Shown: positions 19,839 to 20,882 of the stretch, in pieces | How the letters are laid out: each line of letters begins with the position of its first letter | Position numbering within the stretch: position 1 is the stretch's first letter | NCBI RefSeq assembly: GCF_000003195.3 | Contig: NC_012875.2 | Location: forward strand, 17,988,398-18,052,397 | Source: Sorghum bicolor | Lineage: Eukaryota; Streptophyta; Magnoliopsida; Poales; Poaceae | DNA length: 64,000 nt | Direction of reading: 5' to 3' | Made by a program: the position numbers and the translations under genes | The notes under the pieces: model-generated | The model's database searches: none | What the model was told of the DNA's origin: nothing | Seen by the model: only the letters and a program-made list of their open reading frames with translations

Positions 19839-20882
19839 ATGGCACGCACTAGGCTCACCGCTCGCAAGTCCACTGGTGGGCGGGCCCCTCGCCGTCCGTT
19901 GGCGGCTAGGAGCTCGCGACATAAGAGCAAGTTCCTAGAGGAGTTTGGGATGCCCACTTTGCTTTGGAGGGTGCTCAGTTCGATGGGGTATCCCGAAGGA
20001 ACGGAGCCTCGCTACTATTGGGATAAGGAGCCGCTTGGTGACGAGACCCTGGTGGGGATCGAGGCAGTTGTCCCTACCAGTGGAGGAGACCCTGCTTGGG
20101 GCGGTTGGGTGTACGAGTCCCGAGGTGTCACGCCTTCCCACGGTGCCAGCAGGGCAGCTTTCGCAGTTTTGAGGGACCTCATGGAGAGGTTTCCACAGGA
20201 GCTGGCCCACGCCTTCGCTGGGGTGTTTCCCCGGGGTGACCCTTACACGTCGGTGTGGGATCAGTCCGAGGTGAATGCTCTAGAGAGGAGTGCGAATGAG
20301 GACCAGCACAGTGACAGTGCAGCTATGAGTGCCATGTACGCGTTGATGAAGACCTATGGAGGCCTGGAGCGTTGTTTGGGTCGCTTGTCCGGGTCTCTTC
20401 TCACCGTCCAAGATGAGAAGCGTCAGTTGCAGCGTGAGTTTGACTCTGAGGTTGAGAGGCTACAGGCAGAGTTGGCTCGTGTGACCAGAGAGAGAGACCA
20501 GGCAGTCCAGAAGAACAGTGAGCTGAGTCAGGACCTGCTTGCAGTGCGAGAGCAGAAGGACAGGGTGACTACTGCTCACAGGAACTGCGAGCGCATGCTA
20601 GTCCATGTGCCTGGACAGAGGAATGAAGCCTGGCACGAGGAGGACACTTTGAGGGCCCGACAGCTAGAGCTAGAGCAGCAGCTAGCTAATGCTGAGGAGT
20701 ACAATGAAAACTTGCATGAGGAGATCCACCAGCTGCATAACGAGCTCCACCCTCACCACCTGCCTGGAGCAGCGGAGCTAGACTCTGAGGACGAGATGGA
20801 CGCGGATCCCGAGATAGGAGCAGCTGCTAGTGGTGATGAAGATGAGGATGGCTCCGGCATGGACAGTGACCACAGCGAGTAG
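19839..20882 (+). CDS. Extra ORF of Tek-B1 with histone H3-like N-terminal tail
   Basis: The 347-codon ORF lies between the PBS and gag, on its own. The first ATG is at 19839; nothing upstream in frame begins with ATG. After the initiator Met the first 21 residues match the histone H3 tail at 16, starting [18 protein letters not shown]. Lysine 9 with its ARKST context is kept, while H3 K4, K14, K18 and K23 are arginine. Then comes a globular part ([15 protein letters not shown], about residues 32-160) shared with the extra ORFs of Tek-B2 and Tek-C, a long heptad-like coiled coil (about residues 185-300), and a strongly acidic C-terminus (about 308-347). No known enzyme motif is seen. The H3-like part, the coiled coil and the acidic end suggest a chromatin-binding, oligomeric factor; this is inference. 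The frame is intact. Both neighbours, LTR and gag, are on the same strand, and a splice-acceptor-like CAGCAG precedes the start. Confidence 0.88.
   Translation: [347 protein letters not shown]

Follow-up and report, generated by a model that had tools for sequence, protein, structure and literature searches.

We show that an additional open reading frame (aORF) in the 5′ part of a Tekay-type chromovirus of Sorghum bicolor encodes a protein with a histone H3-like N-terminal tail, and that this tail, as judged from codon comparisons between element families, is under purifying selection at the protein level. The tail was likely acquired by exon capture from a host H3 gene, since the H3 similarity shared by the families stops at the residue at which the first coding exon ends in two intron-bearing H3 genes. 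We tentatively propose that this accessory ORF, with its captured and selected H3.3-type exon 1, supplies an H3-tail mimic that docks onto a host factor, a reading that we regard as finely balanced.

The aORF lies in the window, by which we mean the whole stretch of 64,000 nucleotides that was analysed, and is part of a 14.5 kb LTR retrotransposon on the forward strand (15055-29595, Table 1). Its position between the 5′ LTR and gag of a chromovirus agrees with the initial annotation, which had called it a retrotransposon ORF. The element shows the features of the Ty3/gypsy group (Metaviridae), namely TG..CA LTRs, a target-site duplication and the order gag, protease, RT, RNase H and integrase. 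The name Tekay-type is our assignment, which we take from the architecture and the long LTR starting TGTAACACC; the sequence TGGCATCGGAGC just behind the 5′ LTR presumably resembles plant initiator-tRNA primer sites. The two LTRs are 99.2% identical over 3.8 kb in a self-BLAST (partner segment 25689-29509), with 28 differences in 3,821 compared bases (K2P 0.0074, 0.7% divergence), which at a rate of 1.3e-8 gives an insertion age of about 0.3 million years. The gag-pol frame contains one in-frame stop codon, located in pol (23415-23417). Among the PDB matches to the C-terminal segment of the integrase (best E 1e-4) are chromodomain chains (Clr4 E 0.0057), and we judged the type of this chromodomain by eye. 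The second Met of gag (21207) also follows a CAG, in the arrangement CAG/ATGG at 21204-21209, as does the Met of the aORF, so that a common leader might be joined by splicing to the one or the other.

Table 1. Features of the aORF, its host element and the tail-less relatives in the window.
Feature	Position	Strand	Basis or remark
Target-site duplication GAGGC, 5 bp	left 15050..15054, right 29596-29600	+	read beside both LTR ends
5′ LTR, TGTAACA...TGTTACA	15055..19013	+	self-BLAST and ends read
Primer-binding-site-like TGGCATCGGAGC	19016..19027	+	just 3′ of the 5′ LTR
CAG, splice-acceptor-like	19836..19838	+	directly before the ATG, as in H3 gene L106
5′ additional ORF (aORF), 347 aa	19839..20882	+	between 5′ LTR and gag
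H3-derived tail, Met and residues 1-23	19839..19910	+	counterpart of coding exon 1 in H3 genes L106 and L113
Central domain, residues 38-117 (helix-strand-strand-strand-helix, about 41-117)	19950..20189	+	AlphaFold2 model, moderate confidence
Long coiled coil, residues 159-303	20313..20747	+	AlphaFold2, pLDDT >90 over most
Acidic C-terminus	20748..20879	+	sequence; pLDDT 42-50
gag-pol frame	21201..25679	+	gag, zinc knuckle, protease, RT, RNase H, integrase, weak chromodomain (Pfam order)
Chromodomain-like segment, integrase C-terminus	25452..25676	+	Pfam Chromo 17.8 bits, cut-off 25.1
3′ LTR	25692..29595	+	self-BLAST and ends read
Tail-less aORF relative, second (decayed) element	37518..38591	-	start 38591, MDAPASPLPSDTFLSEF
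Tail-less aORF relative, third (decayed) element	57338..58405	-	start 58405, MDVPASPRPSGTFLSEF

Translation from 19839 gives a protein that is identical to H3 at 16 of 23 positions over residues 1-23, and likewise at 16 of 21 over residues 1-21. K4, K14, K18 and K23 of H3 are replaced by arginine, and T3, R8, K9, S10 and T11 are as in H3. Both the match count over 21 residues and this residue pattern had been put forward in the initial annotation and hold in the window copy. A phmmer search with the whole aORF against 177,635 sequences matched the tail of H3 precisely from the N-terminus onwards (best E 2.8e-4), residues 1-24 of the query being aligned to residues 1-24 of the chain. Under a binomial model with per-site match rates of 0.06-0.12, at least 16 matches in 21 positions at a fixed N-terminus have a probability of 4e-16 to 2e-11, in line with the earlier view that chance similarity is unlikely. 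The span first given for the mimic (19839-19931) covers more than the tail: its H3-like part ends at 19910, and the last seven residues lie beyond the tail. The aORF lysines at residues 28 and 30 also fall outside the ungapped H3 alignment.

Behind the tail (residues 1-23) follow a linker, the central region, the coiled coil and the acidic end. The AlphaFold2 model has a mean pLDDT of 70.8, with values of only 27-34 for residues 1-20. In scans of the aORF against Pfam no family scored above its cut-off, and the matches below the cut-off fell mostly in the coil and included no histone family; for the central region, neither a meaningful PDB sequence match nor a Pfam match was found. The modelled strand order of this region, alpha-beta-beta-beta-alpha, makes it double-stranded-RNA-binding-like, whereas dsRBM sequence motifs gave no match in Pfam or the PDB. 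A histone fold was not found in the Pfam scans, and the model has a long coiled coil instead; without a histone fold, the aORF product can be ruled out as a true histone. One locus (L099, C4:27028537) is a deletion derivative of the window family, with a single open frame in which the tail and a portion of the central domain are fused to the end of the coil.

Tails of this kind occur in several families, which match H3 at 16-19 of 23 positions. The window family, F1, has R in place of K4 in all 30 loci retrieved without use of the tail (the best 30 of 126 scored). F2 (L100, L101, L103, L105) encodes a protein of 155 amino acids without the central domain, its tail ends in [S/P]R, and its aORF is followed by a gag that, judged by eye, is related to that of F1 but diverged. 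In F3 (L107-L109, L111, L112), which has the central domain, the tail equals H3 at residues 1-13 and ends in [Q/P]LAPR, with K4 and Q5 in all five copies. F4 (L110) is a single copy with stop codons and the tail MARTKLTARKSARGRAPRHQLAPG. A short form, represented by 38 database tails, mostly reads MARTK[R/L]TARKSAGGRAPRH and keeps K4 in 37 of these 38; K4 is absent from the window protein and from the database protein P0012. Residue 14 is arginine in all 40 tails compared (39 from the database and the window), the exceptions in F1 being the single copies L080 (W) and L099 (Q). As read from these sequences, the common pattern of the tails is that K9 is kept and K14, K18 and K23 are lost, and the change from K4 to R is specific to lineages. 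The original description of a tail in which only K9 survives thus fits some lineages, that of the window included, but not F3 or the short forms, which retain K4. Some H3 readers may not accept R4 in place of K4.

The pattern MARTxxTARKS is encoded at 680 places in the genome, 12 of which look like H3 genes, and the reversed pattern, used as a control, at none. Freeing codon 9 raised the number only to 691, so 680 of these 691 places have K9. Residue 4 is not lysine at 660 of the 680 places. The 20 places with K4 comprise five F3 copies, one F4 copy, two with the appearance of F1 and 12 with that of H3 genes; among them, three H3-like and six aORF loci were read, and two F1-looking and nine H3-looking ones were assigned by codons alone. 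L107, whose codons suggest an H3 gene, proved to be an aORF when the locus was read. With the full-length aORF as query, 117 genome copies were scored out of 3,432 first-look candidates, and 100 of these are free of stop codons. When queries blind to the tail were used, the tail was present in 30 of 30 F1 loci, all with R8, K9, S10 and T11 (query P0010, best 30 of 126 scored), and in five of five close copies (at least 92%), all F3 (query P0024). K9 is present in all 80 unique F1 copies. In the database, 39 of 146 collected proteins show the tail, 38 of them with K9; many of the other entries start inside the protein at inner start codons taken by gene callers, so that the first residue of such an entry need not be the true N-terminus. 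A protein search with residues 1-110 returned four proteins, with the tail in none of the entries, and viral contigs scanned with P0001 and A2 yielded no relative. The initial annotation had named conservation of K9 and a wider search for the tail as checks; both came out in its favour. It had also reasoned that a tail confined to this copy, or subject to random substitutions, would be a private accident, and an accident of this kind is ruled out by hundreds of places in several families in which amino-acid changes are suppressed.

Where the tail came from can be read from H3 genes of the same genome. In L106 (AATGCAG/ATGGCTCGT..GCAACCAAG/GTAACA, slashes marking the exon boundaries), coding exon 1 runs from the ATG to residue 23, and in L113 exon 1 also stops at residue 23 (AAG/GTTTGT), with no AG before the ATG. 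In the H3-like genes L102 and L114, the ATG follows AAG and the exon end could not be placed, so that among the four intron-bearing H3-like genes read, the exon end at residue 23 is clear in two and CAG precedes the ATG in one. The aORF tails resemble L106 and L113 in spanning the ATG to residue 23, and L106 also in CAG/ATGG, and differ from the H3 genes in the replacement of K14, K18 and K23 and in the absence of a histone fold. Over residues 24-26, no H3 match is present in F2 or F3, and R26 is common to H3, F1 and the short forms. The ATG directly follows CAG in 96 of 99 F1-like tails (taken from fetched loci, some of which overlap), in three of four F2 and five of five F3 copies, in the one F4 copy and in two tail-less relatives. 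R14 in nearly all tails and R23 in most point to a single capture of an H3.3-type coding exon. Two of the H3-like genes have peculiarities of their own: L102 (C1:55813019) has cysteine at residue 5 and a tail similarity that ends near residue 20, and L114 (C1:57741150, minus strand) encodes asparagine at residue 9 of its H3-like first exon and is possibly an H3 variant gene or pseudogene without K9.

Three families whose proteins are otherwise very different, F1, F2 and F3, all keep the tail. Between F1 and F2 (L100), codons 1-14 contain nine synonymous changes at 13.5 sites and encode the same 14 residues; path counting gives 9.0 synonymous and 1.0 nonsynonymous changes with the peptide identical, which indicates that the amino acids were kept and not the bases. 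For the tail (residues 1-23) we obtained pN 0.125 and pS 0.67 for F1/F2, 0.156 and 0.64 for F1/F3, and 0.226 and 0.64 for F3/F2, although Nei-Gojobori counts are rough at such distance and L107 covers part of the protein. Substitutions in the tail thus do not look random; a dN/dS comparison over the tail had been suggested in the initial annotation. In F1/F3, the sole pair with all parts in both proteins (other pairs align poorly beyond the tail), pN rises to 0.31 (residues 24-36), 0.36 (central domain) and 0.53 (coil), and in all three pairs the pN of the tail is lower than that of every 23-codon stretch beyond it. Because the search pattern that led to F2, F4 and the first F3 copy holds residues 1-3 and 6-10 constant, agreement at these positions is inflated; at the 15 unfixed residues, F1 and F2 agree at 11 and F1 and F3 at 10. 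Within F1, pN/pS is 0.118 for the whole ORF in 80 copies, a value biased downwards since the copies were picked by protein score, with 15 that contain stop codons included and the gapped loci L060, L080 and L082 left out. For residues 1-29 the ratio is 0.32, mostly due to one R/H site at residue 18, a CpG codon. In the short forms, A1, T3, T6, A7, S10, G13, P16 and L20 are kept in 35-38 of 38 and R2, R8, R17 and R23 in 20-30 of 38, the lower retention of arginine being due in part to CpG decay of its codons.

Both tail-less relatives in the window carry the central domain behind a short start, MDxPASP..., and retain CAG/ATGG, so that the acceptor may predate the tail or the tail was deleted there. 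Immediately behind the start, their bases (GGACGYGC) are similar to F3 sequence beginning at codon 13, a likeness that could mean an in-frame deletion of the tail. In a tree of the coil region (P0008 and P0017 left out), support was too weak to order gain and loss of the tail.

Additional 5′ ORFs of Tekay elements in grasses and sunflower have been published (RIRE3, RIRE8, Retrosat-2, Sb7 and maize Tekay), and that study likens the models of the maize and sorghum proteins to a double-stranded-RNA-binding protein (PMC11728184, 2024), which fits the strand order in our model. The published aORFs share with that of the window the position between 5′ LTR and gag, the lineage type and a predicted nuclear location, and the word 'histone' does not occur in the main text (PMC11728184). 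Surveys of extra ORFs across plant LTR elements also exist (PMC6317226, PMC7264820). Among the titles and abstract beginnings covered, with most subscription journals and bioRxiv outside the coverage, we found neither a report of an H3-tail mimic in a plant retrotransposon nor a printed account of the exon boundary, selection or lysine pattern of the tail. The terms 'H3 tail', 'Tekay' and 'chromovirus' are absent from the main text of a paper on mimicry by plant transposable elements ('Molecular Mimicry of Transposable Elements in Plants', PMC12085086).

The similarity to H3 itself very probably has a precedent, to which we add where the exon ends, which lysines are kept, a test for selection and the idea of mimicry. 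Steinbauerova et al. are reported to have found, in 2011 in Genetica 139:1543, extra ORFs with partial histone H3 similarity in chromoviruses of Poaceae and to have read them as transduced host gene sequence. These H3-like ORFs, located in the 5′ part of the elements, are very probably the same thing as the window aORF. Viral and host histone mimics are known elsewhere, such as the tail of influenza NS1, SNAG domains and the ARKT motif of G9a, which are short linear matches. The aORF is like these in presenting a linear H3-tail match in a non-histone protein and unlike them in matching 16-19 of 23 residues at the natural N-terminus, apparently by descent from an H3 gene and not by convergence. 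H3K9 methylation is a route by which plants silence retrotransposons, and an element with a selected copy of the tail that bears this silencing mark would be a concrete and testable case of histone mimicry by a transposon. The unexplained 5′ ORFs of grass chromoviruses would gain a first testable function, and the natural tail variants, with K4 or R4, T11 or A11 and nearly always K9, can show what the tail must bind.

We envisage that the lineage long ago captured coding exon 1 (Met to residue 23) of an intron-bearing H3.3-type host gene, probably together with the splice acceptor. If the Met is removed as for H3, the protein would expose a free H3-like N-terminus (A1-R2-T3, R or K4, T6-A7-R8-K9-S10) and so display a tail without the acetylatable lysines 14, 18 and 23. 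The tail could then dock the protein, with its RNA-binding-like central domain and its coiled coil, onto a host reader or modifier of the H3 N-terminus around K4 and K9, most likely one belonging to the H3K9 silencing machinery, and the docking might alter the handling of the element's own RNA or DNA. ADCP1, a plant H3K9me2 reader, contacts R2, K4 and K9me2 and not A7, R8 or S10 (PMC6318295); the tails keep K9, R2 and a basic residue at position 4. We prefer docking onto a chromatin factor because a nuclear signal leaves the retained A, T, S, G and P residues unexplained and steering of insertion is less likely. The tail-less relatives count against docking, since they are related elements that do without it.

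In a more specific version, which we consider doubtful, H3K9 enzymes and readers would treat the tail as a histone: K9 could be methylated, residues 14, 18 and 23 could not be acetylated, and residue 4 of F1 and F2 could not be methylated as a lysine, so that silencing machinery would be brought to, or tied up on, the RNA or integration complex of the element. The integrase chromodomain of the element itself might also bind the tail; one survey gives the partner of plant type II chromodomains as not identified (PMC6317226).

It is also conceivable, and to us similarly doubtful, that a basic N-terminus is kept for nuclear import or nucleic-acid binding and that the H3 origin is merely historical. 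The basic residues at 2, 4, 8, 9, 14, 17 and 23 are mostly kept, the changes from lysine to arginine retain the charge, and the 5′ aORF proteins of grasses and sunflower are predicted to be nuclear (PMC11728184). However, the uncharged residues A1, T3, T6, A7, S10, G13, P16 and L20 are as strictly kept as the arginines, or more so, and this conservation holds while synonymous sites differ widely; the initial annotation had judged a plain basic nuclear signal insufficient, and the retention of A1, T3, T6, A7, S10, G13 and P16 bears this out.

We regard it as quite unlikely that a K9-methylated tail tethers the integration complex to H3K9me-rich chromatin and thereby steers insertion. The retention of K9 in its local context and the additional chromodomain-like segment of the integrase would suit such a role, but the tail-less relatives share the window with F1, and F1 and F2, which have residues 1-14 in common, occupy different parts of contig C1. 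Among the places listed, 20 of 24 for F1 and none of 11 for F2 lie within 23-57 Mb, an interval picked after seeing the data, with families told by codons and with maps that could be shaped by loss after insertion. The tail alone thus does not set the location.

That the exon is kept for its RNA features, the splice acceptor and start codon, and not for the peptide, appears very unlikely. Such a role would be consistent with CAG/ATGG in most copies and with codons 7-10 (GCT CGC AAG TCC), which are common to F1, F2 (L100), F3 (L107) and L106, but the tail-less relatives retain CAG/ATGG without any tail, and the F1/F2 (L100) comparison over codons 1-14 shows synonymous change with an identical peptide; constraint at the RNA level alone was rejected on account of the wide synonymous differences. 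Least probable is that the tail is a neutral leftover in the ORF of a decaying element, to which the pol stop of the window copy and the stops in 17 of 117 scored aORFs would lend themselves, as this is contradicted by conservation across a wide synonymous distance and argued against by the stop-free majority of scored aORFs, the low LTR divergence and the low pN/pS of the ORF within the biased F1 sample.

Codons 7-10 (19860-19871) have remained the same DNA in F1, F2 (L100), F3 (L107) and the H3 gene L106 although other synonymous sites of the tail changed, and other copies, for example L103, vary there.
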